From the NCBI GenBank assembly GCA_002189035.1, contig NEEC01000026.1, forward strand, positions 62,001 through 126,000: a stretch of DNA of 64,000 nucleotides, given 5' to 3'. Of the stretch, positions 1 to 56,541 are shown one piece after another; within the stretch, counting starts at the first letter, position 1; every line of letters begins with the position of its first letter. The notes under the pieces were generated by a model. That model saw only the letters and a list, made by a program, of their open reading frames with translations. It made no database searches and was not told the DNA's origin. Source of the stretch: Utricularia gibba (lineage: Eukaryota > Streptophyta > Magnoliopsida > Lamiales > Lentibulariaceae). A program made the position numbers and the translations under genes.

Positions 1-3000
1 GGGTTAATCACAGTTATGATGCGGGAATGCCGGTGGATCCAACCTCGGCAAGTTCCCTCTCTATGGATGTCTGCTTTATCTATTATGCCTAAGTGCTAGC
101 TCATCAATGCTAGAGTGACCTTCCAGGAACTGCGTTTTTTTTTCTGATGCTTTTCTTATTCTACATATATGTTCATTCAATGGCATTCCCATGCTCTCAT
201 ATTGCGTTTGATTTTTTCAGGTCATGTACAGGCCTGTTTTAGATTTGAATGGTATCCAAGGGGCCAGATCTTTGGTTATTTGCTTGACTGGATATATCCG
301 ACATGACCGAGATGATATCATGGTTCTTACATTATGCTGCTTCCTCTCTATCCAAGCGATGACTTTGTTTTCTATCCTGCTAGTTTTCTGATGTTGCATT
401 GACAATCCCCCTAACAAAATTCAATTTCTTTTCCAGACCATGGTTTCCTTGATGGGTGCAGCATTTTCAAAACCCTAGTCGCAAATAAGGTTACTCATCT
501 CATATGCTACAAATTTGAGGGTACGTTTTCATCTATCTCATTTCCTAATAGTCCTCTTGATTATAATTTGATGCACGTTTCATTTTGTTTTTAAGGCTTT
601 CTTTTGCATGGATTTATAATTAAAAAATTTGATAACAAAAAACGTGTATTCTTGAGCAGGGGAAAAGTATGAGCTTGCCAAGAAAGTGAAGACAATAAAA
701 CTAGTGAACCATCGCTGGTTGCAGGACAGGTATTTATAAACTATGCAATGCCACTATATTTCGAATTGCTGCTTGAGTGCCAATTGTCCTGTATGTTTTC
801 TGAATGTCCTTTTTTGGTATATTTAACCTATATTTTTCTTTTTCTCTATTAGTTTGGAGGCTTGGAAGCTGCTTCCGGAAGTTGACTATTGTAAGAGGTC
901 AGAAAAAGGACGATATGTGAAATGATGGCCTGAGAAATGCCTTTGGATTTCATCTTTGTCATAATTTTCTAGTTTATCCATATCAAGTCCTAACGATGTC
1001 AAGATTCCAAACATACTAAAATTCATTTTTTACTGCAGTGGGTATGAGTTGAGTATAGAGGTTGAAGCTAAAGATTCTGAAGACGACACAGAAACTGCAC
1101 CAGAAAATTTGGATGTCAGAAGGGAGAATATTGTCTGTCGTCAAAATATACCCACGGAGAATAATATCATCTCTCAGCCACCAGTTAAGCAGGAAGTATC
1201 AAGAAATACTTCTTTGAATGCATCCGAAACTTTGCTATATGCTGGTGGCAACCATAAGATTCATGAAAGTTCTGGAAAGGAAATTTCCTCAGTGGAAACC
1301 TTGAGTGCACCGAAAGGTTGTGATAAAAATCTTGGAACAGTGAGATCAGATGATTTAAACCTGCCTGGGGAGTTTTCTCTTAAAGTGCCATTGCCGAATC
1401 ATGGTACCGTGGTTTCTGAAAAGGATAGAGCCCTGTCGCCAATGCTGGAAAATGTGCACGTATCTCCTGCGGGTGTGCCCAAATCAAGAAAAAAGCAAAT
1501 ATCTCGAGCAAGTCCTGCTGTTCTTCTCAGATTAGAAAAAATGGAAAGTAATTCAGGCAGTCTAGCATCATCAATGCTGAATGAGCATGACGTTAGTGGT
1601 CTTGATATGGCCTTGGAGGATCTGTCTAATGGAGTCCGTCCTCATACATTTGCAGCAACTCTGGAGGAAGCCCCATTAGATGATAACATTGAGCTAGAAG
1701 TTTCAGTGTCAACTAAAAGGAAAAGGAGCACATCTCACGGTGGTTCGAAATCATCAATATCAAGCGGTAAGCAGGTTGCGTCAGTGGAAAGGGGGGTAGG
1801 AAAAAAGATTCTTAAAGTTTCAGCTTCTGGATCCTCAGTTAATAGCTCCAGCGTGTTGGGAGATGATTGTCTTGTAGCACTTTTCGATGGTTGTTCAGGG
1901 AAAGACAGTGAAGTTGCTGACATTACTATCTCATTAGAGAGGAAACAAGAACATGATGAAGAAATACTTCAACGCTCTAGTGAAACATCGAGAAAGAAGA
2001 CCTTTTCCAATTCAGATTTGATGGGTTTGTTATCAGGTCAAACTACCAGTGTTTCAGGGGAAGTTGAGATGCATAAAGATGAGTCACATGTAATTGAACC
2101 TGTATCCTGCGGAACTAGTTTTGGTTCAGAAAACATGGATCTTGCGACGTTTCCAACATGTCGCAACTCTGCTGCCCACACAAAACCCGTTAGTAGAAAG
2201 ATGTTTGTTACAAAATCTTTGTGTTCCAGACCAGCTATAGGGAAAGAGAGAACGATTAGGCATAAAATGTCTCTCAACCTGAAAAAAGACGACCTCTCGG
2301 ATGAACACAGAGTTGGACATGGTGAAGAAGCGCCAAAGAAAAAGTCAGGCGATTCATTTGTCTTTGAGAAAGGTGTGCTGCCATCTGGGGTTACTGATGA
2401 GGATAGTGGTATGCAATGTCTTTCAGGCAGTGAAACTAAAAGCCCCGTGTCTGATGAATTTAGCATTCCACGTATAGGAGGTGACATCATTCCTAGAACA
2501 AAGTTGAACGGCACTGGCACCATATGTACGGAGGAGCAGTCTACAGGAATTCTGAAGAGCAATACTGCTGCCGTAGGCAATCAAGGCGAGGAAAACAAAG
2601 CGAAAAAAATGAACACCATAAGTGGTGGGGCGAGGAAAAGATTAACGAAGGGTAATAAGCGTGCTTTGGCTAAGGCTGAGCCAAGTGCGCCGTTTAGTTT
2701 TAGTGATGAACTGAAGAGTGCAGATCGCGATAAAGTGGTGGATGAGATGGCCCTTTTAGATCATAATGAAGCTTCTGTGTTGGTTCGTCATACAAGAAAT
2801 GGGGCGTCCAGGAAGTTGAAAGGCCGCAGGAAAATGGAGAAGGAAAACAAACCAAGTGATAGTTTGCATAAGAGTATCAACATTGGTGCTGGTGAAGAAG
2901 TTTGTAGTTTGACTCCTAAACTTGCAAAAAAGCCTCATAATGATTTTTTGAAGTCCAGCAAACCAATCCCAGATTCAGAGAAAAGGACTATTATCCATGA

Positions 3001-4097
3001 GGATAAAGCTGGCCCTGCCTGTTTTATACTGAGCGGACATAGACTGCAGAGAAAGGAGTTTCAAAGTGTGATAAAGAAACTGAAAGGAAGAGTCTGCAGG
3101 GATTCACACCACTGGTCATATCAGGCTACGAATTTCGTTGTTCCTGATCCTGTAAAACGAACTGAAAAGTTTTTCGCGGCTGCAGCATCTGGAAGGTATT
3201 TATATTGGCCATCATAATTTCCGTGTTTTGAGTGATTGCTTGATTATGTGTTGCTTATCTCGGTTTGATTTGTGCAGTTGGATTCTAAAGACAGAATATT
3301 TAACTGCTTGCAACGAGGCTGGCAAGTTTCTGCCCGAACAACCATATGAATGGCATACGAAATGCTTGACTGAAGATGGTGCAATCAACTTGGAGGCTCC
3401 AAGAAAATGGCGGCTCCTCAAGGAATCAACTGGCCATGGGGCATTCTATGGAATGAAAATCATCATATATGGAGAATGCATTGCACCTCCATTGGTAACG
3501 TTTTGCTTCCTCTTGTGGTTTGATTTCTTCCCATTCACACGTTTGTGATGGTAATACATGGATGATCTAAACCAGGAAACACTAAAGCGTGTGGTGAAGG
3601 CTGGCGGCGGGACAATTGTTGCAACATCACCTCCTTACACGCGCATCCTCCAGTCAAAAATTGATTTCGCTGTAGTAAGTCCCGGCATGCCACGTGTGGA
3701 CATGTGGGTCCAAGAATTCCTCGCACACGAGGTGCCCTGTGTTTTAGCTGATTACTTGGTTGAGTTTGTGTGCAAGCCTGGTTACTCTCTAGAAAAGCAC
3801 GTTCAATACAACACATATTCTTGGGCCAAGAGATCACTTGATGATCACGTGAGGCGGATCGAGGAGGTTGAGGATCCGAGAACACCAGTTGATGATAGCA
3901 ATGTGGATGAGGACGTGTCATGCAAAGCATGCGGACGTGCAGATGGAGGGGATGAAATGCTGATATGTGGAGATGAAAGTGGCAGCCGTGGGTGTGGTGT
4001 TGGCATGCACATCTTCTGCCTTGATCCTCCACTGGAATGTGTTCCAAAGGATGACTGGTTATGCGTTGCCTGCTCTAACGCACTTGCCCTACTGTGA
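1..4097 (+). CDS. BRCT-repeat protein with C-terminal PHD finger (5' end outside window)
   Basis: Homologue of the plant BRCT protein At4g02110, a probable nuclear DNA-repair or chromatin factor. Exons read as <1-47, 221-322, 437-520, 660-729, 853-897, 1039-3195, 3278-3494, 3576-4097. The first exons give an N-terminal BRCT region (HSYDAGMPVDPTS, then VICLTGY, then VTHLICYKFEG and NHRWLQDS). The large exon encodes a low-complexity Ser/Lys/Glu-rich linker of about 650 residues. A second BRCT region follows (WILKTEYLTACNEAGKF; PPYTRIL; PCVLADYLVEFVCKPGY). The end is a C4HC3 PHD finger at about 3920-4075 (CKACG, MLICGDE, GMHIFC, DDWLCVAC). The first intron has a GC donor. Exon 437-520 is out of frame by one missing base: FSKP is followed by TAG at 476-478, while LVANKV continues in the next frame. 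I read this as a lost C in the CCC at 473-475. The start codon lies upstream of the window. Confidence 0.9.
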
Positions 4098-4972
4098 AGT
4101 GTAAACCAGCCGCAAACATGGATGGAAATTGGAATGCATGCATATCATCAAAGCCTTGGTAGATGATTTAAGTGTGCAAATGTTGACCGGAATAAAGACA
4201 AGTTTATGCAGGTTGTGGGTCGGGAGGCAGAGTAGATAAGATTATACGATTGTTTGGCGTTTGCTTCTACTTACAAAAAAACTGTACTGTCTGCTGCAAA
4301 TGCTTCGCCGCAGACGCCGTCTTTAATAGCCATGGAAGAGAAGAGGCAGAAAAAGGAGAAGAATCCTATGCGCGGTGCGGTGCACACATCTCATTAAAGA
4401 CTATGCACAAGATGACTTGAAGGGATGACGACTTCCGATGTAGAGACTGGCACAAGAAAGCGTATGATTGTGACAATAAAAAAGGGATGGTGTTGGTTTC
4501 CACATATTTCTATTATTATTTATTCAAATAAAATATATAATTCCAATTATTGTAAAGTAATCATCAAAATTCTAAATTAAATTCCATATTTAAGGAGTCG
4601 GCAAATTATTTTTGTGCATTCCATAGCATTTTTTATTAGTTAAATAAAATTCTCCAAATCATCATTATTTTTTACTATTCAATTTATTTTTAATTTTCAT
4701 ATCAATTTTATTAATGTAAATTAATATTTATTGTTAATACAAAAATCTTAATTCATTTGAAATTTAATAATTAATTTATATAAAAATTTTAAATATTTTT
4801 ATAGTAAAAATTAAAAAAATGTTACATTCAAGTACATTTCATAAACATTAATTAAAATAGATTTATCAAAAAATTCAAGTAACTACACATTTAATCACTT
4901 AAAACCCCATAAGAGATACAATTGTTCATCGTTCACTTGGATGCCTTAAATCACATGAACCTCCTATTCCTC
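4098..4972. other. 3' UTR then AT-rich intergenic DNA
   Basis: The first 400 bases are presumably the 3' UTR of the BRCT gene, with an AATAAA-like signal near 4475. From about 4500 the sequence is strongly AT-rich and low in complexity, with no gene visible up to the copia insertion. Confidence 0.6.
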
Positions 4973-4977
4973 AAAAT

Positions 4978-5297
4978 AGAACGTGTTTATGTAGTAGTTT
5001 GGAATAACATAGCAGCTTGTGCTTTGCATAAAAATTCAAAATACCATAATCAGTTTACAACAGGTTTGGGAGATATTTAAAGCATTACAAGGGTCGTAGT
5101 TGACCGTTGATACATCTGGTAGTGGGTCTGAGTGATTTACTTTGGTCTGGGCTTTCCCATCGCTGGTGTGGACCTTGTTGTTTAACTGGCCCGGCAACTA
5201 TCCTTGTCCACAGTTGTTCTATCATCGACAGTCGCTGATGTGCAGAGACGACGACAAAACCCTTCCTATTCGATAGCATAAGCAGCAGTCTTCAACA
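4978..5297 (-). repeat. 3' LTR of the copia element
   Basis: Direct copy of 9277-9596. The terminal base at 4978 differs from its partner at 9277 (A versus T on the plus strand), so the canonical TG...CA end is intact only in the 5' LTR. Confidence 0.9.
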
Positions 5298-5307
5298 CAC
5301 TCCCTTG

Positions 5308-8300
5308 CTACGTAGTCTTGGGTTCTTCTGAGGGGCATTCCTTCATTCCAATTTTCTCTCTAGAGTAGGTGAATCGTTTGGGCAATAAGAATTTGGTAAG
5401 TAGGTCTACAACTTGTTCTTCACACCGAACATGCTGGAGATTAATTTCTCCATTTGCTACAAATTCTCTAATGGCATGATACCGCACTCTAATGTGTTTA
5501 CTTCTTCCGAATTGGGTTGGATTTTCCCCTAGGGCAATAGTTGGCTTGTTGTCTATCCACAATGTAGTAGCCGTGTCAATTGTTACGTCCAGGTCTTCTA
5601 GGATTTTCCTCAGCCAGATTGCATGTTTTGTAGCTTCTACACTGGCAATGTATTCTGCTTCTGTGGATGATAATGCGATGATGTCTTGCTTTCTTGAGGC
5701 CCAACTGAATGATGGTGATCCAAACGAGAACAGGTATCCGCTTGTGCTCCTTGAGTCTTCGATACTTCCTGCATAGTCAGCGTCAGTGAAACCAGTTAAA
5801 TGCATACTTGTGCCCCTTTTGAAGGCGAGACCATAGTTATGTGTTGAGTTGAGATATTTGATGATCTACGTTGCTTCTTCCATGTGAATTTTGTGAGGTT
5901 TCTAGAGATATCTGGAGAGATAGCTCACAGAAAAACAGATATCATGTCTGGTGGCTGACAAGTATATAAGTGAGCCTATTATGCTGTTGAAAATTTTCAC
6001 ATCAGCTAGTTCTCCTTCATTTTTTCGATCAGGTTTTATTGCTAGTACACCGGTAGGCCTTGCATTACTCATATTATATTTCTTAATGATATCAGCTGTG
6101 TATTTTCTTTAGCTCAAGAAAATATAGTCAGATGAGTGTCTGATTTCTGACCCTAAGAAATAGCTCATCATCCCTAGGTCGGTCTTTTCAAATGTGAGCA
6201 TGAGTTGCTCCTTTTCTTGTGCAAGTAGATGGTGATTGTTTCCAGTAAGGAGTATGTCATCAATGTAGAGAGACACAATAAGGTATGTTGTTTTTTTCTT
6301 TACTGTATAAAGTATAGTATCATTTGTGCTTCTTCGAAAACTTCCGGACTGAAAATATGAGTCGATCCTAGTGTACCAAGCTTGTGGCGCTTGTTTTAGA
6401 CCATATAGGGCTTTGTGAATTAATAATACTTTGGTCTCTTCTCCTTGCTTGACAAAACCAGGGGGTTGCTACAAATAATACTTCTTCATGTAGATGCCCA
6501 TTTAGGAATGCGCTCTTGACATTAAGGTGGAAAATATCCCAATTGTGACAACCAGCCAACGTAATAAGAAGTTTAATAGTATCCAGACGTGCAACGTACG
6601 CAAACATCTTGCTGAAATCTATGCCAAGTACTTGAGAATATCCTTGTGCAACAAGGTGTGCTTTTAGCTTATTTATAATCTCATTCGCATTCAATTTGGT
6701 TCAAAAGATCCATTTCACGTCTAGTATTCTTCTATTGGGTGGCTTGGTGACTAGTTCCCATATCTTATTTCGTTCAATGGATAGGATTTCAGATTCCATA
6801 GCTGCTTTCCACCTGGGGTCTTGGTAGGCAATGTCCCAAGCAGTAGGTTCCTGAACTACTAAGCATCGGGCATATATTTAACTTATGTCTCGGTAACCTT
6901 GTACATGGACCTCTCCATCATCAACAAGCGAATCAGAAACAACAGTCTGATCAGATGAGGGTTCATCAATGGGTGAGGAGGCCAGCTGTTCCTCCGGTGT
7001 CGGAAGATCATTAGCACTAGGAAAGGGCTCATAGAAGAGATCATTCCATGAGTAGAAGGGAGGTATGTTATCTAGTGTCCATTCCCAGCATTTCGATTCA
7101 TCTACCAATACATCCCGACTGACCACTATTCTCTGCATGGCTAAGTTTAATGCTCTATATGCCTTTGAAACGTCACTATAACCTAGGAATATGTTAGTAC
7201 CTGCTAACTTATCCAATTTGCCGCTCCGCCTCTTTTGGGGGACATCAATAAAGCATAGGCTCACAAAGATCCTCAAATGATGGACCCGAGGGATTTCACC
7301 ATGCCAAGCTTCATATGGGGTTTTATTCGGTAAGGAAGAGGTAGCACATTGATTCAATAGATACATTGAGGTATTTACAGCTTCACCCCAAAAATAGCTT
7401 GGTAGATTTTTTTGAAATAGCAAGCATCTGCTCATATTCATGAGGGTCCGGTTTTTTCGTTCAGAGGTCCCGTTTTGCTGGGGTGTATATGGAGTTGAAA
7501 ATTCGTGCTTGATACCGTGAGTGTTGCATATTTCAATCAGTTCTACTGGGGAGTATTCACCATCATTGTCAGTGCGTAGCTTAAGTATTTTCTCCTTAGC
7601 TTCATATTCCACTACAGCTTTAAAGAGTTTGAAGTAGTAGAGCACTTGCAATCTATGTTTCAGAAGAAATATCCAGCCATATTTGGTGAAGTCGTCGATG
7701 AACAGTAGAAAATACCGATTCCCACTTGGTGTCATGCAGCTCATAGGTCCACACACATCCGAGTGGACCAATTCCAACTTTCGACTGCTTTTCCAGGTGC
7801 GTGAGGCAAAAGGGAATCTGCTCATTTTTCCTTGTTGACAAATGAAGCATACTTCGGTTGACTGTTTTAATTCTCATAGTCCTTCAATTAGATGATGTTG
7901 CTGCATATGAATAAGTGTTCTTTGATAGAAGCACTCAAACCGCTGATGCCAGGTATGCTCCTTCATTAGGATGCTCATACAATAGGAGTAATGGAGGTAT
8001 TGTCATGAGTGTAGAGAATGTCTTGATCTTGTAGTTGACCATAACTGATCAAATTGTGATGAGCTATATGCACATAGTACACATCCCTTCAGGAATTAAT
8101 TTTTCTTGTCCTACTACTTGCAAGATTTTTGTTTCTGGAAGAGGTTTCAGTGTTTTGAAGCATGTAATGTCATATGTCAGATGATTGCTACACCCGCTGT
8201 CAAGGTACCAGTGTTTATCCTTTGAGAGTGTTCTTTTTCATTAGTAGATAGTTCGGTATGAGTATCAGTAACTGCCAGCACCATGTCCCTCATATTTTGT

Positions 8301-9095
8301 GACATTTCTAAGATTATAGCAGCAGCTAACAGCTCTTTAGCTTTTCGTTTTTAAAGGCAAACACGCTCAATATGGCCTGTATTTGAGCAGTGTGAGCATT
8401 TGTTTGAGGGATCCCACAAGCAGTCTTTACTCAAATGATTTTTTTCTTTGCAGAATTGATAAGGGGGATGGGGTCCCTTCTTTTCCTTTCATGTCCCTTG
8501 GTTTTGACTTGATTTGCAAGACATATAGGCAGCTTGTAGGATTTTCTCTTGAGGTTTTTCTTGTTCTTCAAGTATGTTGATTCTTTGTTCTTCTCCTCTG
8601 AGCGTGTTCAACAATTCTGATGGTGAGAGATTTGTTAAGCTTCTGGTTGCAATGAGCGCACTCACAACAAGGCTGAACTTGGAGGGCATGCTGGCACATA
8701 TCTTGTTTATAACTCACTCATCTTCTACGGTTCCTCCTAGTAGCTTAATCTTACTTATAGGCTTGTTCATCTTATCCGCAAACGATTGAATGGTGTTCGA
8801 GTTTGAGATTTTTACCAGGTCAAACTCTCTCCACAGGTTCAATCTTTCTGCTTGTCTTGAGTTTTCAGTTCCTGAAAAATTCCACTTCAAGTATTCTCTA
8901 GGCCTCTCTTGCAGTTTCACAATTTACTATCATCAATAAGATCTCATCAATGAGAGACCCGTGAATAACTACCATTGTCTGTGAGTTTGTCATAGTTTCT
9001 TCTTTTGTAAGTTCTCTGGTTTTTCCTTCTTTTTCTGTTGGCGGGTTCTTGGTCACTATGACCCATAAACCCAAGGCTTGCATGTAGCACTTCAT
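5308..9095 (-). pseudogene. Copia gag-pol polyprotein, broken by stops and frameshifts
   Basis: Read right to left on the minus strand. Gag fragments lie at about 8490-9095. A CCHC zinc knuckle (CSHCSNTGHIERVC) lies near 8350-8400. The integrase core at 6878-7825 keeps a D-D-E set (HSDVCG, RTDNDGEY, SERKNRT) and the PYTPQQNG motif. The reverse transcriptase at 6200-6700 has LVAQGYSQ, and LYIDDILL near 6240-6270. RNase H at 5308-5805 is an intact 165-residue frame (TDADYAG, SSTEAEY, DNKPTIAL, RSKHI). In the RT the usual DVKSAFLNG reads NVKSAFLNG, so the first catalytic Asp is replaced by Asn; with the frame breaks this means no active enzyme. Confidence 0.9.
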
Positions 9096-9276
9096 TTTTG
9101 CTGCCTAGATGAGATAGTTTTTTCCATCGAATTGTGGAGGTTGTAATGGTATAAAATTGTTGGATTTGTTGCTCATTTCTTCCTGAATGGTTAGTAAAGA
9201 TACTGGTGTATATAGAAGTATGTAGTACGATATGATTTATACCTGAATCAGTGCTTGAAACCCTGCTCTGATACCA

Positions 9277-9596
9277 TGAACGTGTTTATGTAGTAGTTTG
9301 GAGTAACATAGCATCTTTTGCTTCGCATAGGAATTCAAAATACCATAGCTAGTTTACAACAGGTTTGAGAGATATTTAAAGCATTACAAGGGCCGTAGTC
9401 GACCGTTGAGACATCTGGTAGTGGGCCTGAGTGATTTACTTCGGTCTGGGCTTTCCCATTGCTGGTGTGGACCTTGCTATTTAATTGGCCCGGTAACTAT
9501 CCTTGTCCACAGTTGTTCTATCACCGATAGCTACTGATGTGCGGAGACGACGACAGAACCCTTCCTATTCGACAGCATAAGCAGCAATCTTCAACA
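9277..9596 (-). repeat. 5' LTR of the copia element
   Basis: Partner of 4978-5297. On the minus strand it ends CACGTTCA directly before the tRNA-Met primer-binding site. TSD AAAAT follows at 9597-9601. Confidence 0.9.
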
Positions 9597-9601
9597 AAAA
9601 T

Positions 9602-12195: not shown

Positions 12196-14017
12196 TCAGC
12201 TCGATGAGGCTTCGTATTTCAATGGAATTGAGCGGCTCATCCCGGCCTGGGACAGCAGACTCTCCACCGCGGGAAGATCACGGCAGAACATACCTTGAAA
12301 CACTGGAGGGGCCGGTGATATGCTGGTTTTGCGGCCAATCAAATCCGTGTCATCACCCTGGCGAGCTGCAGGCCTCCCACTCTGTTTCTGGTTCGGATCC
12401 CGGTCCACAATTCCCGTCAACACGTTTGTGTAGCCCTTCTGAATCAATCTATGCAGCAAATGTGCCGAAAGCCTGGCACGATCTCTAACGGAATCCGCCT
12501 CATTCGCGTTGGAGAACTCGCAACGCTCGACGAAAGCGGATGATCGATCGGGCTTGTGCTTCAGGGAGAGGAGCAAATGGGACCGCTCAAGCTCCGATCT
12601 TGAACAGTCTCTCTTCAGTCCCAACAAGGAGTAGAAATCCGCATTCCCAGTTTCGCCTTCTGCCACCCTTTGTTTTAACTGTTGGATCTTGGAAGCTAGT
12701 GAGCATAATTTCCCCGGAATTTCTCTATACTGAAGGGTTGGCAATTTCCAGACATGAACTGCCAGTTTTTTCTCTTTGAGAATGGAGTTGTAGACAAGTT
12801 TCAGATGCTCTAAATCGTGTAGGCTGTCGGGAAAACATCTGATTGTTTCGAATAAGCTGGCTCTCACAGTGAGAGCTTGTATCGACGACGTGTCCAATGC
12901 GAGAGCCTTGTTACAGTCGGCGATTGCGTCCGCGATTCTCCCGGCGGACTGGTAGGCCGACGCACGGTGAACGTAGCACTGGGCTAAAAACGCTTGAGGA
13001 GCGCTGCGGCGACCATCGAGGATTTTGGAAAAATGCCTGATGGCTTCCGAGTACAGACCTGCGTCGAGGGCGGCGATCGCCGCTGTCTTACGGCGGACGA
13101 GGAGTTTGATGCGGCAGAGTAGATGGGCAATGCTCTCCGACTCCATCTTTTGCGGGGTCTGAAGTGGGATGCCGTTGAAATTTTCACTGGACAGAGGGAA
13201 CTTGTGGGTGGAGAAAAAGTCATCCGACAGTGAAACGCTTTCGCGGCGGAATGCATCTGACGCGAGGCGTTTTCCTGTCTGGAGGAGCACCATGGCATCT
13301 TCCAGTAACCCGAGATGGCAACAAGCTTGACCCAGAACCAAATACCTGTTTGAGTAAATGTATCAGATCGGCAAAATAATCAAGAAACTGAAGATCTGAG
13401 GGTTGAGAAACTACCTCCATGGACCCTCTTCCTCGGCGTTCTTCCCCAGACCAGCCATCACCTTCCTCTTTAAATCCGCCACGGAGAAACACTTGAACTC
13501 GGATCCGCCATCAATGCCGCCGGAGGAATTCAGCTTAAACCTCTTTCTAATCAACAGCGTCGACGAACTCTCAGACGAGGAGGACCCGGAGGACGAGGAT
13601 TCGTCGGAAATCGCGATCTTGAAGCTGGGAATACTGTCATGCAGCATATCCGCCACCTCCTTAAAGCGGCGGAGAGTCAATAAACACTTGGCCTTCATCT
13701 CCAAGAGCGCATCCATCCGCGGGGCCACAAGCAGCGCTGCCTCCAGCAGAGCCAACGCCGCTGTGACATCCCCCTTCTCCTGGTTGGCCATGAGAATCTT
13801 CGCCTCCCTCAAGCATTTGCCCACCACCTACCACAGGGCAGTCATTTAAACTCCACCTTCCCACCCCATAGAAGAGAAAGAAGAGCACAAAATTGGGAAG
13901 GGGAGGGCAGGCATTGCCTGTTACCTTCTTGTTGGTCATCCAGCAAAGCCTCCTGTCGCCGGCAGCCGGTGGCACAGTCCCAGTAGTCGGCATGACCGGT
14001 TGTACGAAATCAACCAT
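12196..14017 (-). CDS. TPR protein with C-terminal J-like domain
   Basis: Three exons on the minus strand, 13925-14017, 13415-13827 and 12196-13345, join to a 551-residue frame without lesions. The start MVDFVQPV is the first Met. Tetratricopeptide-type helices cover most of the protein (for example AALALLEAALLVAPR, LGQACCHLGLLEDAMVLL, YSEAIRHFSKILDGR, ADAIADCNKALALD). An acidic, Ser-rich insert sits in exon 2. Near the end, NADFYSLLGLKRDCSR through SLKHKPDR is a J-domain fold in which HPD reads KPD. Without that His it is unlikely to stimulate Hsp70 in the usual way, so a TPR-based co-chaperone role is inferred. It resembles Arabidopsis proteins of the At4g02100/At2g47440 type (from memory). 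Divergent to SAR1, with 2 kb between the start codons. Confidence 0.88.
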
Positions 14018-16029: not shown

Positions 16030-16959
16030 ATGTTTCTATTAGATTGGTTCTACGGCGTTTTGGCATCGCTCGGATTGTGGCAGAAAGAGGCTAAGATCCT
16101 CTTTCTAGGTCTCGATAATGCCGGAAAAACCACGCTGCTGCATATGCTCAAGGACGAGGTTCATTCTTCTTCACCTTTGTGGATGTCTTGATTTTGGGAT
16201 CTCCAGCTGATTGGGCTTTGGTTTTGATGCAGAGATTGGTGCAGCATCAGCCGACGCAGTACCCCACGTCGGAGGAGCTAAGTATCGGAAAGATCAAGTT
16301 TAAGACGTTCGATTTGGGAGGGCATCAAATCGCACGCAGGGTTTGGAAAGATTACTATGCTAAGGTTCGCTTCATCTAGTGTATAGTCTCGCATTCGCAT
16401 TGCCCTCCATTCATAGACATACAACCTTTAGCGGATTCTTGAGGCTTTTTTGGAGGGGCATAGGCGTTTTTTTCCTTCGGATAACGTGCCTGCTGATTGT
16501 GACGGAGAAAAAGCAAGTATGCTTTAGGGAACAGCCAGGGAGTATGCTGTTAGCCGTTAGCCGTTAGAAGCGCCTTCCTTCATGTTCTATCTTCAACATT
16601 TGATGGCGCCTTCTGCCGTCTCACCGGTCTTGTTTCAGGTGGATGCCGTTGTGTACCTTGTGGATGCGTTCGACAGGGAACGGTTTGCAGAATCCAAGAA
16701 GGAGTTGGATGCTCTGCTCTCAGATGAGGCCCTTGCTAGCGTCCCTTTTCTAATTCTGGGGAACAAGATCGACATCCCATACGCGGCATCAGAAGACGAG
16801 CTGCGCCATCAGCTTGGCCTGAATGGAGCAACAACTGGAAAAGGCAAGGTGAGCGTCTCGGATTCTAACGTGCGCCCACTCGAGGTTTTCATGTGCAGCA
16901 TCGTGCGCAAGATGGGCTACGGCGACGGCTTCAAATGGATGTCTCAGTACATCAAGTGA
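16030..16959 (+). CDS. SAR1: SAR1 small GTPase (COPII vesicle budding)
   Basis: Three exons, 16030-16158, 16233-16364 and 16639-16959, give exactly 193 residues, the normal SAR1 length. Visible motifs: N-terminal amphipathic [18 protein letters not shown]-loop GLDNAGKTT, switch region [21 protein letters not shown], and the C-terminal [18 protein letters not shown]1 is recruited to the ER by Sec12 and in its GTP form inserts the N-terminal helix and recruits Sec23/24. Frame is intact and all introns are GT-AG. The second intron contains a short GTTAGCC tandem at about 16548-16567. The next gene, a RING-CH protein on the same strand, begins 398 bp after the stop. Confidence 0.97.
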
Positions 16960-17357
16960 TGCCTGCCTGCCTGCGTTTGTGTTGGAATGGGGTGCTAGTT
17001 TCTATAATCCTGAACCCACCTCCTTTACGCTTGTCTCAAATAAAAGAAAGTAGTTATTTGGAAGTGAATTAGTAGCTGCAGAGCAGGGTGAGGATCTGGA
17101 AGATGATTCTCCCGAAATCAGCGCCGCGCAGAAAGTCGTCATCTTCTTCCTCCAACCTCTGCACCCTATCACTCACTCACAGGCTGTCGAGAACCGCGCT
17201 CTTCTGTATGTCGTGGAAACACGGGAATGCAGGCAGGGGGTCCGGTAAACGGTTTGACTTTTTGACCTAGGGGCAATTCTGGGATTGGTAGGCGCCCCCC
17301 CCCCCCCTTCTGTCGATATAAAACCGAGGCGTGCGTGAGCGCGTCCAGGAAAAGAAC

Positions 17358-31122: not shown

Positions 31123-31127
31123 TAATC

Positions 31128-32218: not shown

Positions 32219-34422
<2,204 letters not shown>

Positions 34423-38629: not shown

Positions 38630-38636
<7 letters not shown>

Positions 38637-40366: not shown

Positions 40367-41484
40367 GTGGCATTGATTGTGTTATTTTTAGGGATTCAAG
40401 TTGGGATCTAATGAGGTATCCATTAACAAGTCCGATATGGATATCATTTTTAGTAAGCCTCTAAGATTCGATGCACTATTGATTTAAAATTGTCATTTTG
40501 TATGTTTTTGTTTATTTTCAAGCTATTTTTTAAAAATTAAACAATCAATTTCTTGTGAATACAATGTTTTACTTATTATTTAAATGGTTTATATGCATTC
40601 TCATTATTAACATTTAACACCAATAAATGACACAATTTTTGTACCAAAAAAAAGTTTTCTATAAGTTAACAAAAAAATGTAATTTAAAAGTTTATTACTT
40701 ATATTGGTTTGAATTTTTAATTTTTAAAAAATATTCATTAAGAAGAAACTCGTGATATCAAGAAATTGCATAAGAATAATTTTAATTATAAGAGTGGATA
40801 GTGTGTTTGTTTATAACGTGAGAAATTCTGAAAATCCAAGTTTTGTTTGCATTAGATATTTTCTTAAATTTTAGGAAACAGAATGTCTCTTTATTGTTGA
40901 AAATTGGATGATTAATAAATCTTTTGAGCGGTTTTTAAAGCGCACATGTTGATTGATTTTTTTAAAAGGAATAGTGTCAGACTATGAGTTAGGTTTCCTT
41001 CCTTTCCAAGAAGAGGAGGTTTGTAGGCTAAGGTAGGGTGACGAGATGACTGACTTGGGGAGCCGATCCGTGACGCCCACGCATTGGGCCGTTGCCCCTC
41101 CGCTCCGTTCCGTTACATCATCCGTTTGTGTCTGTGATGTGAGGGGTCGCAGCCAGCCAGCCAACCAGCAGAATCAAATGTTACAACATCTTCTAGAGAA
41201 GTTGACACCCTTTTGGTCAACGGAACGGAAGAGAATTCCATGGAACCCACTGCCGCCGTTCCTTAACGGCGTCATTCCAATATACTGCTTTCTCCCCAAG
41301 CAACGGCCCCATTAAAATCCCAGACGCTGCAGTCAACCACCATCTTGATAGGGAGGCGCAACTTTCGCCTTCCGCCCTGCTTTCAGCGGATACGTCCATT
41401 CCTGCTCTCCGCATCGAAGCGTTGACTTTCTTCCTTGGGAACCAACGGCAGGGGCGTTTTCATTTCATCGGAGGCGAGTAAGTA
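40367..41484. other. AT-rich flank then ABCB promoter/5' UTR
   Basis: 40367-40980 is AT-rich without genes. 40980-41484 is GC-richer and presumably carries the promoter and 5' UTR of the ABCB gene. Confidence 0.5.
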
Positions 41485-44400
41485 ATGTCAACGCCGGACG
41501 CGTCGTTGACAAATGGCCCAGGGGGCCATGCCGGAGACGGCAAGAAGAAGAAGGAAGCCCCCAACACAGTGCCCTACTATAGGCTATTTGCATTTGCTGA
41601 TTCCACGGACAAGCTACTGATGTTTCTTGGCACCGTCGGTGCCATAGGGAATGGTTTAGGATTCCCTCTTATGGCTGTTCTTTTTGGGAACTTGGCAGAT
41701 GCCTTTGGTCGAAACTCCAGCGACGATGTCCTTTCCGCTGTCGCAAAGGTAAGCAAACGAGGTCCTTCAATTTCCAAAACTGTGCTGGGGCTCCCGTCTG
41801 ATGATTTTCTGATCAATTTGTTAGGTATCCCTGAATTTTGTGTACGTCGCAATAGGGACTGGTGTAGCTGCCTATCTTCGTGAGTTTTTCAAGCCACATG
41901 AATCGTATCATGGGCCTATGATCTGATTCACACTTGCATTGCTTGCAGAGGTTGCTTGTTGGATGATAACTGGGGAAAGGCAGGCTGCAAATATCAGGAG
42001 CCTTTACTTGGAGACCATTTTGCGACAAGATGTAGCCTTCTTTGACAAGGAGACGAATACTGGGGAAGTAGTCGGAAGAATGTCAGGAGACACAGTGCTG
42101 ATCCAGGACGCCATGGGTGAGAAGGTACTGCTCCTCTATAAACATTTCTCTGCACCAAACCAAGGCTCTCACCTAATCAAAATCTAACGTTGCAGGTTGG
42201 GAAGTTTCTACAGTTGGTCACCACCTTTGTGGGTGGATTTGTGATCGCCTTCATTCGAGGATGGCTTCTGTCTCTAGTCCTGGTATCCTGCATCCCTGTG
42301 CTCGTGATATCCGGGGGGATCTTGGCGTATGTTTTCTCCAAAATCGCCTCTCAAGGCCAAACTGCATATGCTAAAGCTGCTTCGGTGGTCGAACAGACAA
42401 TTGGCTCCATCAGAACAGTAAGCAGCTAACACTGTAATCTCCCTAAGAAAGATGTGGTCTACCTACTATCTTTCTCCTTGTTTCTCTGCAGGTTGCATCA
42501 TATACTGGGGAAAAGAGAGCTGTGGCAGAGTATGAAAAGTCCCTTACACAAGCTTACAAATCAGGAGTAAAAGAAGGGTGGGTAAGTGGACTAGGTTTTG
42601 GACTTTTAATGTTCTTTGCATTCTGCACATATGCCCTAGCTATTTGGTTTGGATCGAAAATGATCATCGAGAGAGGTTACACGGGTGGTCAAGTACTCAA
42701 TGTGATAATAGCTGTCATAATCGGTTCCATGTAAGTAGGCTCCAACTCCATGTTCATTAAAGAGTTCTCCTTTCCCGAATCTGCTGTCTAACAGAACAAC
42801 TTGAATCAGGTCCTTGGGACAAGCATCTCCATCCCTGACTGCTTTTGCAGCGGGGCAAGCAGCAGCTTACAAGATGTTCGAAGCAATAAAGAGGAAGCCC
42901 AGTATAGATGCATATGATACCAGTGGCAAGATCCTAGAGGATATCTGTGGAGATGTAGAACTAAGAGATGTCTATTTCAGTTATCCAGCAAGACCAGCTG
43001 AGGAAATATTCAGAGCCTTTTCTCTGTTTATACGCAATGGCACAACAGCAGCTTTGGTTGGGCAGAGTGGGAGTGGAAAATCAACTGTCGTAAATTTGAT
43101 AGAGAGATTCTATGATCCTCAGGCAGGTGAAGTATTGATTGATGGCATCAATCTTAAGGACTTTCAGCTTAAGTGGGTCAGATCGAAAATCGGGCTTGTA
43201 AGCCAAGAACCTGTGCTTTTCACTACTAGTATTCGCGAGAACATATCATATGGTAAGGATGGCGCAACTATAGAGGAAATCAGAGCGGCAGCAGAACTAG
43301 CAAATGCCGCTAAGTTCATCGATAACCTTCCTCAGGTATGATACCTTCTCTTTTTTTGTGGTCTTATTTATTTCTACCCGCTTCATAAACTTGGGAGTCT
43401 GTGCAGGGACTAGATACCATGGTTGGTGAGCATGGAACTCATCTTTCAGGAGGGCAAAAACAGAGAATTGCGATAGCCAGGGCAATTCTCAAGGACCCCA
43501 GAATTCTACTTCTTGACGAGGCTACAAGTGCATTGGATACCGAATCTGAGAGAATAGTGCAAGAGGCATTAGACAGAATAATGATAGGCAGGACAACCAT
43601 CGTTGTAGCACATCGTTTGACCACTGTCAGAAATGCTAATATGATTGCTGTCATTCATCAAGGAAAAGTGGTTGAACAAGGTACATGCTAGATCTTAGTC
43701 TCAATGCCGCGTTCCTGACCCCTGATAATAATATGATTCATTCTTCTGCCTGCAGGAACACATGATGGGCTACTTGAGGATCCTGAAGGTCCATATTCAC
43801 AGCTCATACGCTTGCAAGAAGTGAAAGAACTCTCTGAAGAAAATGAAAAATCAGAGATCACCACAGAGGCTAGCCGAAGTATGTCGATTATGCGATCCAT
43901 CAGTAACACGTCCTCTGACATAGGAAACTCAAGTCGTCACCATTCATTATCCGCATCATTAGGTCTCCCTGGAATGACTGTCAGGGTACCTGATCCTCCA
44001 TTGGAAAAAGAAGATATAAGCTCCCCTGAAATCTCTGAAAAGGTTCCAAAGGTGCCTCTTATGCGACTTGCTAAGCTAAACAAGGCTGAAACACCCATCC
44101 TCCTCTTGGGAATGTTAGCTGCAATATTAAATGGTGCAATAATGCCTCTTTACGGATTGATGATCTCATTCGTAATCAGAATATTCTATGAAAGCCATCA
44201 TGTACTTCGACGGGAATCCAGGTTCTGGTCTCTCATGTTTTTGGTCCTTGGGCTGCTTCACTTGTTGCATACCCTGCAAGAACATACTTCTTTGGTTTGG
44301 CGGGGAACAAGCTAATCAAGAGAGTCAGACTGATGTGCTTTGAGAAAGTAGTGAACATGGAAATTGGTTGGTTCGATGAGCCTGAGCACACAAGTGGTGT

Positions 44401-46102
44401 GATTGGATCGAGGCTATCAGTGGATGCAGCCAGCATCCGTGCATTGGTTGGTGATTCAATCAGCCAAATGGTTCAGGATGTATCCTCAATCACCGTTGGC
44501 TTGGCCATAGCTTTTGCAGCTACTTGGCAACTGTCGCTGATCATACTCGCTATGGTACCCTTTATAGGTCTCAGTGGATACGCGCAGATTAAGTTCATGA
44601 AAGGATTCAGTGCAGATGCGAAGGTTTGAGTCAAGAGCTTAATGTGCTGCAATGTAAAAAGTTCAAGAGACTAACCAGATTCATTGTTCCTGTCGCAGGT
44701 CATGTACGAGAGAGCAAGCCAAGTTGCAACAGATGCTGTGGGAAGCATAAGAACGGTGGCCTCATTCTGTGCCGAAGGTAGGGTAATGGAGATGTACAGG
44801 GAACTCTGCAAAGGGCCGATGAGAAAAGGAATCCGCCAAGGAATGATAAGTGGCGCAGGGTTTGCCTCATCCTTCTCGGTTCTCTTCCTGGTCTACGCCG
44901 CTAGCTTCTACTTTGGCGCTCGGCTCGTCCAGGACGGGCGCATCACCTTCGAAGACGTTTTCCGAGTAAGAGTCGCATGCAGTATCCGGAATCGAATACC
45001 ATCACCTTTGCAATAATTATGTATTCCCTCTATTTACAGGCATTTTTTGGTCTAACAATGGCGGCCATGGCTGTCTCCCAATCGAGTTCTTTGGCTCCAG
45101 ATTCAACCAAGGCGAAGACCGCTGCTGCTTCTGTATTCGCAATTCTAGACAGGAAATCGAGGATCGATCCCAGTGACGAGTCTGGCTTGAAGCTGGACAA
45201 CGTGAAGGGTGATATCGAGCTGAGACACGTCAGTTTCCGGTATCCGACCAGGCCCGAAGTTGAGATTTTCCGAGACCTTTCCTTGACAATACGCTCCGGG
45301 AAGGTGAGAACTAGAAGCATTCCTCTTGCCCAGTGGACTGAACCGACCAGTTTATTCATCACTCTTTTTTTGCTTCAGACCGTTGCTCTTGTTGGGGAAA
45401 GCGGAAGTGGAAAATCCACGGTGATTCAACTGCTGCAAAGATTCTACAATCCAGAATCAGGTCAAATAACGCTGGACGGAACTGAGATCCACAAATTCGA
45501 GTTGAAATGGCTGAGACAGCAGATGGGACTTGTTAGCCAAGAACCTGTTCTCTTCAACGACACAATCCGCGCCAACATCGCCTACGGTAAAGGAGGGGTC
45601 GCCACCGAAACTGAAATCGTCGCCGCCTCGGAGCTCGCCAATGCTCACAACTTCATCAGTGGACTAGCACAGGCAAGAGCAACGAAACACCATTAACGAA
45701 CAAAATAAAATGTGGGTCAGAAAAGTTGACTGGCGTCTTTCGGTGCAGGGATACGATGCGGTGGTCGGAGAGCGAGGTGCGCAATTATCCGGCGGACAGA
45801 AACAGCGAGTGGCGATTGCAAGGGCCATCATCAAAAGCCCAAAGATTCTGCTGTTGGATGAGGCCACTAGTGCACTGGACGCCGAATCTGAGAGGGTAGT
45901 ACAAGATGCGCTGGATCGAGTGATGGTAAACAGAACAACGGTGGTTGTGGCACACAGGCTATCAACGATCAAAGGAGCTGACCTCATCGCCGTCGTGAAA
46001 AACGGAGTCATCGTCGAGAAAGGGAAGCACGATGCTCTGATCAACATCGATGGTGGCTTCTACGCATCCCTCGTCGCCCTTCACAGCACCAAAACCACGT
46101 AA
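41485..46102 (+). CDS. ABC transporter B family (MDR/PGP-type), full-length
   Basis: Twelve exons: 41485-41748, 41825-41879, 41949-42124, 42196-42417, 42492-42730, 42810-43335, 43407-43680, 43756-44623, 44699-44965, 45040-45303, 45379-45672, 45749-46102. About 1267 residues in TMD-NBD-TMD-NBD order. NBD1: [39 protein letters not shown]2: [36 protein letters not shown]. Both catalytic Glu residues are present. Relatives such as ABCB4/ABCB21 move auxin across the plasma membrane; this substrate is unknown. In exon 8 the frame breaks at GGG 44250-44252: [12 protein letters not shown] continues as [14 protein letters not shown] only after adding one base, and the exon length is one short of the phase required. 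The last intron has a GC donor (CAG/GCAAGA). The SECA1 start lies 319 bp after the stop. Confidence 0.95.
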
Positions 46103-46420
46103 TTCCTCTGCAAGGTTTTAGGTGTGATTGTATTTATCTTTACCGCGATTGCAAACGTATGATGTATCTACCCCGCCATTAAACTCATGCAATGAGCGGG
46201 ATTTTTCTGTCGGAGAAAAATCGCCGGCGGGTATATAGGTGACTGGCTTACCGGTTGAAGCCCGCTGCAGAAAGTAGATTTCGGCATCTGGGTGCCATAA
46301 AACGACACCGTTGTAATGTGGATAAAGCATATAAGAGAAATAAACATATATCTTCTCGCCTGAGTTGGCCGTTTCCTTACAGCCACTCAATACGGAAGCG
46401 TTTTCGGCTACAGTGGGCGC

Positions 46421-49400: not shown

Positions 49401-52108
49401 AGGTTCTCAATGCAAAACCAGAAAATGTGGAAAGGGAAGCTGAAATTGTTGCTCAAAGTGGTCGTCTTGGGCAGTTACAATTGCAACAAACATGGCTGGT
49501 CGGGGTACTGACATAATCCTCGGTGGTAATGCTGAATATATGGCAAGATTGAAACTAAGGGAGCTGCTGATGCCAAGGTTTCATTTGAGGATTTAGTATT
49601 TTTTAAAGCTCATGAGAGTTCCATATATTACTTTTTTTTTCTTAATTGTGTATTTTGAATATTCAAATATATTTGCGTTGGGTTAAATTTAAGATTTTGT
49701 ATGGTAAAATGGAGTTGAATGTTTTGTGAAGGTTACCTAGGTTTTAGATCTTTTATTCCAAGTATATGCTGCAAATCAAGTTAATATCTTTTAAGTTCAG
49801 GGCCGTTGAGAAAACAATAACTAGTTTTTCTCATAAAACCGATGCAGAGTGGTGAGACCACCTGAAGATACCTATATTTCTGTGAAGAAGCCTCCCCTGA
49901 AGAGAACATGGGAGGTTGGAATTTTTAAAAATGCTTCCTGTTTGTTTTCTATAAATTTTTACAGTGGCTGATCGTGGATCAGGTTAGTGAGAAGTTATTC
50001 CCATGTACATTATCAAAAGAGAAAACTAAATTGGCTGAAGAAGCGGTAGAGTTGGCTACAAAAGAATGGGGTTTGAGATCATTGACTGAGCTTGAAGCAG
50101 AAGAGCGCCTTTCATATTCTTGTGAAAAGGTGAGATTTATTTGTAACCTCATCAGATGAGCTACGATATGATAAAAGAGGAAGGTGAAATTCTGGCATAC
50201 TATGTTGATGATAAATGTACTGAACTGTGTAGGGACCTGTTCAAGATGAAGTCATATCAAGGTTACGGAGTGCATTTCTGGACATCGTGAATGAATACAA
50301 GGCTTACACAGAGGTTGAGAAAGAGAAGGTAATCAATGCAACAATAGAAAAATTTCCTAGATAACTTTCTTGTTCCATTAAATTTTTTAAGCTGCTCATC
50401 TTGATTCAAAAAGTGTATAAAACAAAATTCTCAGAGTGGAAAGCATAAGGTGGTCAAGATATGACAGTGAGATGATGAAGCCAAAGAAAAAATGATATTT
50501 GTTGCCAAAAAAAGGGAAAAATTTTCAATGCATTTTGTAAACGTGATCCGTGAATTCCTTTTTCACCGAATCAGGTTGTTTCGGCTGGTGGACTTCATGT
50601 TGTTGGAACTGAGCGTCATGAGTCACGAAGAATTGACAATCAGGTGTTCCCTTGACTTCCGAGTGCTAATTATATTTTGTTCATCTTCGAGTTTCCCATC
50701 TTATTCTGTATCTATATACAGCTACGCGGCCGTAGTGGCAGACAGGGGGACCCTGGAAGTTCCCGTTTTTTCCTTAGTCTTGAAGATAGTATTTTTCGGA
50801 TATTCGGTGGTGATCGAATTCAGGTTCTCCTTTTGTACAAGCATTTTAATGCCAGTAGTGGTCTACAAAGTTTTCTACTCCTTTGACATGAGAATGTAAA
50901 GTATAGGGGTTGATGAGAGTGTTTAGAGTTGAAGACCTGCCAATAGAATCCAAGATGCTGACAAAGGCACTAGATGAAGCACAAAGAAAAGTGGAAAACT
51001 ACTTCTTTGACATGAGAAAGCAGCTATTTGAGTATGACGAGGTCTTGAACAGTCAGAGAGATCGGGTGTACACAGAAAGGAGACGAGCTTTGGAATCTGG
51101 TGATCTCCAGGCCCAGGTTATTGAATATGCTGAGTTGACTATGGACGATATCTTAGAGGTAACATAATTGTTCTTGTGTTTTGGCTTCTGCTATTACCTT
51201 TCCTATACAGATAAGTGTAATCCGTTCTTTCCTCTTGTTGATGGCGAAGGCAAATATAGATGCCAGTGCACCTAGAGAAAACTGGGACCTTGAGAAACTA
51301 ATAGCCAAACTTCAACAGTAAGCTAGAATCCTTCTCTTCATCGTAGTGATCATGTCATTTTGCTGGTTAATTTCGGCCTTTTTGTCAGTGCGGCTGATTG
51401 TACACTCATCATGGGCTTCGTTTATAGGTACTGCTATCTTTTGAATGACTTGACCCCAGATCTCCTGAACAGCAAAAGCAGCACTTACGATGAACTCAGA
51501 GATTACCTCCGGTTTCGAGGGCGTGAAGCATATCTGCAGAAGCGGGTAAGTGTTTTTGATCACTTTTCCTGATCGGAAGGGCAAGCTACTTCAGTTTCGG
51601 CGATCCCATACATGTTATCCGATGCCAGGAAACGGTAGAGAAAGAAGTACCCGGAATGATGAAAGAAGCGGAAAAGTTCCTCATATTAACGAACATTGAC
51701 AGATTATGGAAGGAGCATCTGCAAGCTATAAAATTTATGCAGCAAGCCGTTGGCTTGCGGGGTTATGCACAGAGGGATCCTCTGATAGAGTACAAACTTG
51801 AGGGATACAATCTCTTTGTGGACATGATGGCGCGTGTTAGAAGGAATGTCATATATGCTATCTATCAGGTACTCCTCATTCATTCATTCTTTCTTTCTTT
51901 CCCATGAAGGAAGTTTCTCTTTCAGCTTTTTCCTCCAAAGGTCTTGAGTTCCTTCTTCAATTCCTATCAGCTCCAACCTGTGATGGTCAAGGAAGCGACC
52001 AAAACAGCAGACAGCAAGAGAGACGGGAAGAGGAGTAACAACGGCAATGAAGCTGTCGCTGATAAAACGCCTACTTCAGCTGCTGCTGCGCGCAAGCCAG
52101 TAACTTAG
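46421..52108 (+). CDS. SECA1: Chloroplast SecA preprotein translocase ATPase
   Basis: Twenty exons, 46421-46819, 47084-47156, 47303-47509, 47666-47769, 47854-48033, 48168-48386, 48712-48825, 48896-49009, 49140-49307, 49403-49577, 49848-49914, 49983-50129, 50233-50328, 50575-50643, 50722-50823, 50907-51158, 51250-51317, 51428-51545, 51629-51868, 51971-52108, about 1016 residues. An Arg/Ser-rich transit peptide of about 60 residues precedes [18 protein letters not shown] motor: MKTGEGKT (Walker A), [74 protein letters not shown]1 drives proteins into thylakoids through SecYE. Exon 10 is one base short: after SGRLG the frame is recovered (VTIATNMAG) by one G in GGG 49469-49471. The last exon could also start at 51926, adding 15 residues; 51971 matches the family better. 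Confidence 0.97.
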
Positions 52109-52385
52109 CTACTGGTCTGCATCACCAACAGAACCCAAACGGAGGGACTAACAGTTGACATGAAGAGCAGAAATTGGAGAATTTTTCCCCGAAAACAGAT
52201 AATAATACATTATTATTACATTGGGCTTTTTAGACGCGAACACGTGTACATACATTTGACCCATCGTTTTGGGCGGCCGGTATCTCCCTGCCGCCGCATT
52301 TAAGCGGGAGGAGTAAGATTGGATCCCAACCCCTGAAGTTTCAACAAGTTATGCATGTGTTTGCTGGTGAAGGAGAAGACGAGAG

Positions 52386-55300
52386 ATGGTATCTTTGAAG
52401 GACCTACAGCGACTGGCGAATGGCTTCTCGCTTGTGGCGAAGGAGGGCCTCACCCGTTTCCCTAATCGTGGAACAGAGGATATCCTGAAAGCCGTCGTCT
52501 TATCCGCATCTGATGTTGCCGGATTAACCAAAGGGAAGACACGCAGCCTTGAAAAGCCGGCGACCCAGGCTTATGGCAAAGGAGATGCAAATCCGAAGAG
52601 GGATAGTGTTGTCTACTTTACGAATGATCCTCCTAGCCAAGCCTCCACACCAATATTCGAGGATCATCTCAAGGGGGAATCATCCAGTCACGGTTCTGAA
52701 CCGAAATTGGAGACTCGTCCAAAGGAGTTGCCTTGTGGCGTTTCGGACTCCATTTCCCATGATCAATCATTGCCCATTGCAGATTTTCCGCCTCCTGAGA
52801 TGGGCGCTAAACCAGTGGTGCCATCGGATGGAAGCCTATCCCACGGCCAGCCAGTGCCCCCTGTGTACTCCCCGCCTTCTAAGATGGATGTTAATCCGGT
52901 AGTAGCATCGAGTGTTTCAACTACGGCGAAGAGGAGGATACGTGAGCGTAGAGTTCCCTCTACTTCTTTCTCCAGAGCAATTGGGTTGGATTTCAGTTTT
53001 CTACTCGAGCGAATTTTCGGTTTTATGATTGATTGCCAAAATAAATGAAGCTTGTTGAGTTGTTTCTAAAATGTGGAATCTACTGCACTCTTCTGGTTAA
53101 TGAAGGTTTGCTGGTCTTGGAGCTGACATTGCTTGGGGGACTCTGCAGGAGTCAGCAAGGAGGATCATGTTTGGTCGACCTAGCTCAGAGCAGCATTCTC
53201 TTTCGCCATTCTTATCTGAGAGGAATGCGGAACGTTTAGCTTTGGCTCTATGCAGAATGCGTGGAGCAGCATTAAAAATAGGCCAGATGTTGAGTATCCA
53301 AGATGAATCCCTTTTACCTGCTCCTGTACGTGAAGCCTTTTTCTGTCTTGATTGAAGCTATATATATTTCCATTCATATTCGTAAGACAAGTTCATGATA
53401 TTATCCCGTTAACCTGTGGCTGCTATCTTAGATCTTGGCAGCTTTGGAAATGGTTCGACAGGGTGCAGATAAGATGCCTAGGAGTCAGCTAAATCAGGTT
53501 TTGGATGCTGAATTGGGTCCCAAATGGTCAACAAAGTTAAGGAGTTTTGATTATGAGCCAATGGCTGCAGCAAGCATTGGGCAGGTGATTTGTTAAGCAT
53601 GGTAGTATCACTGCTTGCTACAATTTGGTTTACCGTGGGCAAGGGAAAAAAAAACTGATTTCTCACATGAAAAAATGTATCCTGTTTCAAATGCTGCCTC
53701 AGGACACATTGACAACCATCCACTTTGTTACAGGTCCATCGGGTTGTCATGAAAGATGGCTTGCAGGTTGCCATGAAAATTCAGTATCCTGGAGTTGCAG
53801 ACAGCATTGAGAGTGACATTGAAAATGTCAAATTGTTATTGAAGTATACGAATTTGATACCTGAAAAGTTGTTTCTTGACAATGCAATGAAGGTAAATGT
53901 CACCTTCATTGTAAGCGTGAATTCTATGTGGCTCATACAAAATCATGGACTAGAAAAATTCATGATTATTCGAGTAACGGAAGACTATCATTTGTTTTCT
54001 CTTACTGGACATTACTTGAGTACTAGATAATATTTATTTCCATTATGCCTGGAGAGATCTGAAATGCATCTACCTATTATGTGTGAGCTTTACACTGCCT
54101 AACCTTTGGCAGGTTGCAAAAGAGGAACTTTCTCGTGAGTGTGATTATGAATTGGAAGCACAAAATCAGAAAAGGTTTCGTAGCCTGTTGAAAAATACTG
54201 AAGGTTTCTATGTTCCATTTGTGGTGGATGATTTATCAAGTAAAAGAGTTCTTACCACGGAACTGGTTCCTGGTATGTGCGCTCTTTCCACATTGCAGTT
54301 CTGTGTTGTATGAAATTATGTGTTTTGGAGATTTTGTCCTGCTCAGGTGCTTTCCTTGATGAGGTGAGAAGAAGGGTATTCAATAATTTAACAACCGTCA
54401 TATTAATGATCCAATTAGAATGTTTTGATATGTTTGGTGCAGATAGTTTATGATTTACAATATCTGTGAAACTTTGCTTCTTATCATTATTTTGATGCTG
54501 CGGTAATGTTTTCTTCTTCTTTTTTTTTTTTGAAATCCTAGGGATTCCTATTGATCAGGTGGCATTGTTGGTCCAAGATACTCGAAATTATGTTGGGCGA
54601 AAGTTGCTTGAGCTTACTCTAATTGAATTATTTGTCTTCCGGTTTATGCAGGTTACCCCATTAGTTTTTTTCTTTCTGGTTTAATTATTCTGATTTTGCA
54701 GTGTTTTCATGCTTAAGTTATTCCCTAGTCTGTAAAGAACTCGACTAGCATTTATCATCTGCAAAAAAGGACCATATCGGGAATCCTGCATTGGTGTATT
54801 CGTGTTTGACTTTTCTGCACGGGGCACTTCTATTCTTCCAAACTGTGGTTTTCTCATTTTGTATGCTTATTTGTCTGTCCTTGGTGTTCCCAATGATGCA
54901 GACTGATCCAAATTGGAGCAACTTTTTGTATGATGAATCAGAAAAGTCTATCAATCTTATTGATTTCGGAGCAGCTAGAGACTACCCAAAACACTTTGTT
55001 GACGATTACTTGAGGATGGTTAATTTCTCTCCCTTACAAAGAATGCCTTAACTATTCCTTCACCTTTTGAGCTTATGGTACATTAGAAGTGAGTTTTACT
55101 GGTGAATCACTTTTTCCAACTCTCTAGTGCTGATCATGGAGTACGATTGGAGTTTATATGGATACATATTTGACAACATCATGCCTTCTGAATAGCTAGA
55201 TAAATGCCAGTATAGATATTGGCCTATGCATGCCTTAATCTTGAATCCAGTGGCCCTTTGGAAATTTGGAGCTGAGGCATTTTTTTACACAGGACATGTT

Positions 55301-55741
55301 GAAATACCCAGTTGGGGTGCTAATGATTCCTATGAAATTGTTTGATCAGGTTCTTGCTTGTGCAAATCGTGATAGAGATTCAGTGATAGAGATGTCAAGG
55401 AGGCTCGGGTTTCTTACGGGAGAGGAAACAGACGTGATGCTAGACGCCCATGTCCAGGCAGGCTTTGTTGTTGGGATCCCGTTTTTCCATGCTGGTGGCT
55501 ATGCTTTTGGAACAAGCAACATAACTCAGAGCATTTCAAGTCTGGGGGAACAATGCTGAGGCACAGGCTGACTCCTCCACCCGAGGAGGCATACAGTCTG
55601 CACCGCAAGCTCTCCGGGGCATTCCTCGCTTGCATCAAGCTCAAGGCCGTTGTTCCATGCCGGGATCTTCTACTTGAAGTTTACAAAAACCATGAATTTG
55701 GTGAAGAGAGTGATAAAATGCTGTCGGGGAGTTGGGTCTGA
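52386..55741 (+). CDS. ABC1/COQ8-type atypical kinase (mitochondrial ubiquinone synthesis)
   Basis: Eight exons: 52386-52984, 53106-53325, 53432-53584, 53734-53892, 54113-54272, 54542-54651, 54902-55018, 55350-55741; about 636 residues. A long N-terminal region, poorly conserved and Pro/Ser-rich, precedes the ABC1 core. Core motifs: [10 protein letters not shown] (KxGQ), [10 protein letters not shown] (Ala-rich loop), VAMKIQYPG (Lys), [11 protein letters not shown] (ExD type), NWSNFLYD and IDFGAARDY (DFG), then GYAFGTSNI and [17 protein letters not shown]. Best match in memory is At4g01660, the plant COQ8 homologue that supports coenzyme Q synthesis on the mitochondrial inner membrane. The frame breaks in the last exon at GGGGG 55544-55548: SISSLG is followed by a stop in the written frame, and [18 protein letters not shown] continues with one more G. 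Exon length confirms one missing base. It starts 278 bp after the SECA1 stop. Confidence 0.94.
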
Positions 55742-55885
55742 TGGGTCACGTGAATTATTATTCTTTCCTGAAATAATGGCCCTCGGAGAAGAATCCAAAG
55801 GCCGGGCAACGTAGTTCAAAGCATTTTCATTGTGCATTGAGGCTGGAAAGTAGTATGCCGGAGTCGGTGAAATATCTGTAAGAAT

Positions 55886-56541
55886 CTACGGAGACAACAA
55901 TTTGATTTGCATCTTTCTCCTTACAAAATAATTGGCGGAAACAGCCCGCCCCTCAGCTACGTCATCTGGCCTTTGGTTTCTTCCTTTGCACCTCTCAGAA
56001 ATGGTCTCCAGCTTCGGTGACCACAACCGATTTCTACAACCCACGACTTCATCGTAGCGCTTCTGCAGCTCCGGCGTGTTACACAGCCGTCTCGCCGCGG
56101 GAGGATCGGGTCCTTGTCCCAAGTGATCAAACTCGCGATGGATTCCTTGTCCACCTTGATCACGCCCCTGCCGTCGGATCCCTTGAGATACTGGAACTTG
56201 CAATCGTGGAGCCTCAAGGGCAGCGCGCCCTTGTTTCTGGACGCCAGCGCCACCAGGGAAGACACCGAGAAAATACCGTTGTTGAAGCAGTCGACGGGAA
56301 GTAGAAAATACGTTTCGCCGGGTCTGAGGCGATCGTCGAGGGAGATCGCCGGAACCCGGCTGCCGAGGATGAAGGAGTCCGCGTGGCAGACGAGCCCGTT
56401 TGGAAGGAATTGCGACAGCACCTGGCCGCCCAAGTGTTTCCCGCCGTAGAGAACCCTCGTGGCGCCGCCGTGTGATACGATCTTTATGCCGGTGGGAGAC
56501 GGGGGCGCGACGCAGGGAACAGAGAAAGGTGCATTGCCCAT
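55886..56541 (-). CDS. PADRE (DUF4228) protein, putative N-myristoylated
   Basis: Single-exon gene on the minus strand. Start chosen at 56541, giving MGNAPFSVPC, a myristoylation-type N-terminus usual in this family; an upstream in-frame Met (56715) is unlikely. Core features: IKIVSHGGATRVLYGGK, HADSFILGSRVPAISLDD, LRPGETYFLLPVD. The C-terminal conserved block LCNTPELQKRYDEVV...WSPKLETISE lies in another frame; adding one base near CCC 56118-56120 (GGG on the minus strand) joins them, giving about 218 residues. PADRE proteins are often induced by pathogens; biochemical function unknown. Convergent with the ABC1K gene, with 145 bp between stops, so the 3' UTRs probably overlap. Confidence 0.85.

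Follow-up and report, generated by a model that had tools for sequence, protein, structure and literature searches.

The DNA analysed here, referred to as the window, is a stretch of 64,000 nucleotides of plant DNA (G000:C507:62001-126000), its contig being one of 516 in an assembly of 100 Mb. Within the window, a SAR1/Arf-like GTPase gene (positions 16030 to 16959, plus strand) is intact, with open exons and a match to the Arf profile that reaches the profile's end without a change of frame, and an intact TPR-DnaJ gene (12196 to 13827, minus strand) has its TPR and DnaJ matches within an open frame. The examined exons of a GSK3/shaggy-like kinase gene (32383 to 34422, minus strand), which has a Pkinase match, are likewise intact and open. 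The stretch at 4979 to 9577 is a copia-like retrotransposon, whose 300-base terminal repeats are 91% alike and whose reading frames are broken, and a 181-aa open frame on the minus strand at 61594 to 62139 appears to resemble part of a hAT-type transposase.

Five further genes in the window, BRCT, ABCB, SECA1, ABC1K and PADRE, are interrupted. The first-pass annotation had claimed that each of them is one base short in or near a G/C run, and this was borne out, as in all five the family matches run on past the site with a frame shift of -1. In the BRCT gene, the shift lies at CCC 473-475 in an exon of 84 bases (437 to 520, plus strand). The PTCB-BRCT profile is matched at 1-29 upstream and at 32-63 downstream in differing frames, and the frame of the next exon requires a length of 1 mod 3. 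The ABCB transporter exon (43756 to 44626, plus strand) is shifted at GGG 44250-44252: residues 584-742 of Arabidopsis ABCB19 are matched in the upstream frame and residues 743-861 in the downstream frame, the two frames share a 1-base overlap in the DNA, and the downstream frame matches the ABC_membrane profile with an E value of 1.7e-27. A search for a second copy found this region to be single copy in the assembly, so that no haplotype comparison is possible there. The SECA1 exon (49403 to 49577, plus strand) is shifted at GGG 49469-49471, where the P-loop_SecA profile is matched at 62-85 in the upstream and at 83-112 in the downstream frame, and the latter also matches SecA structures. In the last exon of ABC1K (55350 to 55738, plus strand), with the shift at GGGGG 55544-55548, the match to COQ8B is divided between two frames, residues 360-423 upstream and 426-473 downstream. 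The PADRE gene (55960 to 56541, minus strand) matches the PF14009 profile at 1-135 and then, in a second frame, at 145-184. As this gap from 135 to 145 leaves the exact base undecided, the lesion can be narrowed only to about 56080-56166, with CCC 56118-56120 as the simplest site, in agreement with the earlier view that this site is the least certain of the five. Some of the broken genes are essential or highly conserved, and all are otherwise open and family-like; decay of the pseudogene type, with mixed stops, substitutions and indels, was not observed in the affected genes of the window.

The same lesion occurred on other contigs in HSP70, HSP90 and GRAS genes, which were chosen for their conservation and long exons, ignoring damage. 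Together, these families yielded another 21 sites at which one base seems to be lost and none with a net gain: five -1 breaks in four HSP70 genes, one of the breaks being present on two near-identical contigs, three in two HSP90 genes, and thirteen in eleven GRAS genes as against about 25 intact full-length GRAS genes. All abutting coding splits examined in the three families were -1, and the lone +1-like distance that was neither an intron nor part of a pseudogene consisted of two -1 losses. Three GRAS copies with many lesions (on C414, at C244:2105 kb and on C3) were left out as pseudogene-like, and one GRAS split, on C416, lay outside the examined set. The GRAS copies L072, L075 and L081 carry several lesions each, probably because they are genuine pseudogenes or because the consensus is badly damaged there. 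One apparent GRAS indel, on C4, was rejected, the split being a real intron. Six GRAS splits at profile position 136-141 were also considered as a conserved frameshift, which was rejected; one of them is the C4 intron, and the remaining ones are separate losses in local G/C-rich codons. Histones showed no lesion in 33 matches covering roughly 9 kb, where about 2.8 would be expected (P 0.06).

The rate of these losses was nearly constant, with one per 3.15 kb in the window, 3.47 kb in HSP70 and 3.10 kb in GRAS genes, or near 0.03% of bases. At such a steady rate, five hit genes in the window are as predicted. The first-pass annotation had read the breaks as uncorrected errors of a long-read assembly, and the fact that unrelated conserved genes on many other contigs show -1 breaks of this kind, equally often, strongly supports this proposal.

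The losses were strongly concentrated at runs of G or C. As a null expectation, intact coding DNA was taken and each possible deletion of a single base simulated; 3.4% of the simulated deletions resemble a loss from a G/C run of at least 3 and 7.6% one from an A/T run. When a wobble base is lost from between two identical bases, as in Gly GGN and Pro CCN codons, the result can mimic the loss from a run, and such cases are included in the simulation. Against this expectation, 21 of the 26 lesions lay at an observed G/C run of at least 3 (P about 1e-26) and none at an A/T run; for the window sites, where all five lie at such runs, the chance is about 5e-8. The other five of the 26 lie outside such runs or have no assignable base: three, two of them in GRAS and one in HSP70 genes, fall where only one or two G/C bases stand together, and for one GRAS and one HSP90 loss no single base could be assigned. 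On C255, the codon at the second HSP90 loss is likewise compatible with more than one lost base. For runs of 4 or more bases in the fully counted coding DNA, which comprises the window and HSP70, 9 of 108 were short among G/C runs and 0 of 310 among A/T runs (Fisher P 4e-6). By true length, the short G/C runs amounted to 6/91 for runs of 4, 0/12 for runs of 5 and 3/5 for runs of 6. A/T runs outnumber G/C runs and are often longer, yet they were untouched, including all of those of 5-7. The earlier interpretation as homopolymer errors thus stands for G/C runs but does not extend to homopolymers in general. In the window, a C run more than 10 long is kept at 17295-17307, so that even a long G/C run may escape collapse.

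We are therefore highly confident that all five frameshifts arose as errors in the assembly consensus and that the plant itself is not mutated at these sites, with the reads presumably carrying the missing base. During the merging of error-prone long reads, the consensus would drop one base within a G or C run, and with too little polishing by accurate reads the omission would persist and leave the frame shifted. Omission at G/C runs is an already published signature, and it is almost certainly not a real feature of the plant. When the genome of Streptomyces leeuwenhoekii assembled from PacBio reads was compared with Illumina data, most discrepancies were C or G residues omitted in runs of at least 3, resulting in frameshifts, and the correction inserted 2,934 bases in 7.9 Mb (PMC4487206). 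The PacBio consensus 'tends to miss a G or C', according to a review on the sequencing of actinobacteria (PMC4849082), and C-rich six-mers are under-represented in raw PacBio reads (PMC7671305). The S. leeuwenhoekii assembly (PMC4487206) and the present one have in common the single C/G omission in runs of at least 3, the coding frameshifts and a frequency of about 0.03-0.04% of bases. However, S. leeuwenhoekii is a high-GC bacterium in which the errors were proved by Illumina contigs, whereas the present data are the consensus sequence alone of a plant assembly with about 40% GC.

Given an artefact, the platform was probably PacBio non-HiFi, as judged from the kind of omission: bases are lost and not gained, at G/C runs of at least 3, and genome-wide at a steady rate. 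The asymmetry between G/C and A/T runs also fits a PacBio non-HiFi consensus better than a nanopore one. Nanopore sequencing as the source of the artefact appears unlikely, although homopolymer deletions occur in nanopore assemblies too, with C/G homopolymers being read worse than A/T with growing length (PMC8486125), and although underestimated run length leading to frameshifts is common to both cases (PMC8486125, PMC7671305). Nanopore sequencing estimates runs of up to about 5 well, its errors falling mainly in runs of more than 5 (PMC8486125), whereas most of the losses counted here are in runs of 4. In one comparison, its trouble lay chiefly in A and T runs (PMC7671305), but the A/T runs here, long ones included, were spared throughout (0/310 of at least 4).

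Real frameshift mutations, in pseudogenes or in one defective haplotype, are very improbable, even though the bases are indeed missing in the assembly and near-identical BiP copies on C241 and C304 have one lesion in common, as would be the case for an inherited deletion. The shared lesion is equally expected if the two are overlapping contigs from the same reads. An independent haplotype pair was considered for them and rejected; they are identical over about 3.2 kb save for one T-run and then diverge, a pattern which suggests that C241 (31 kb) may be an unresolved duplicate of C304. Tandem BiP-like HSP70 genes occur at C304:2235549-2246278 and C241:11334-19737. Real mutation would moreover kill about 30% of the GRAS genes and several HSP70 and HSP90 genes, each of them by a -1 at a G/C run with no other damage. 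True decay looks different, as had been argued from the outset: in psaA on C515, stops and substitutions occur together with shifts in either direction, while the five genes are otherwise open. On this 267.5-kb contig (C515:70100-74549, L078), an intact psaB lies beside the psaA copy with its several stops and shifts, a pattern as would be seen in plastid DNA moved to another genome.

It is hardly credible that some of the breaks are misread exon boundaries instead of indels; the C4 intron indicates that splits alone may mislead, but the five window sites lie inside exons whose frames overlap or abut, leaving no space for an intron, and for these sites this reading is already refuted, though less firmly so for PADRE. 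That the runs are truly this short in the plant, with the reading frame recovered across the genome in its RNA or through slippage on G/C stretches, is so improbable as to be negligible.

Consensus errors at a density of about 0.31 per kb of coding DNA would leave roughly 37% of 1.5-kb coding sequences with a false frameshift. Before polishing, gene counts, pseudogene calls and claims of family loss drawn from this assembly are not to be trusted. The finding is a matter of data quality, and its biological importance is probably none.
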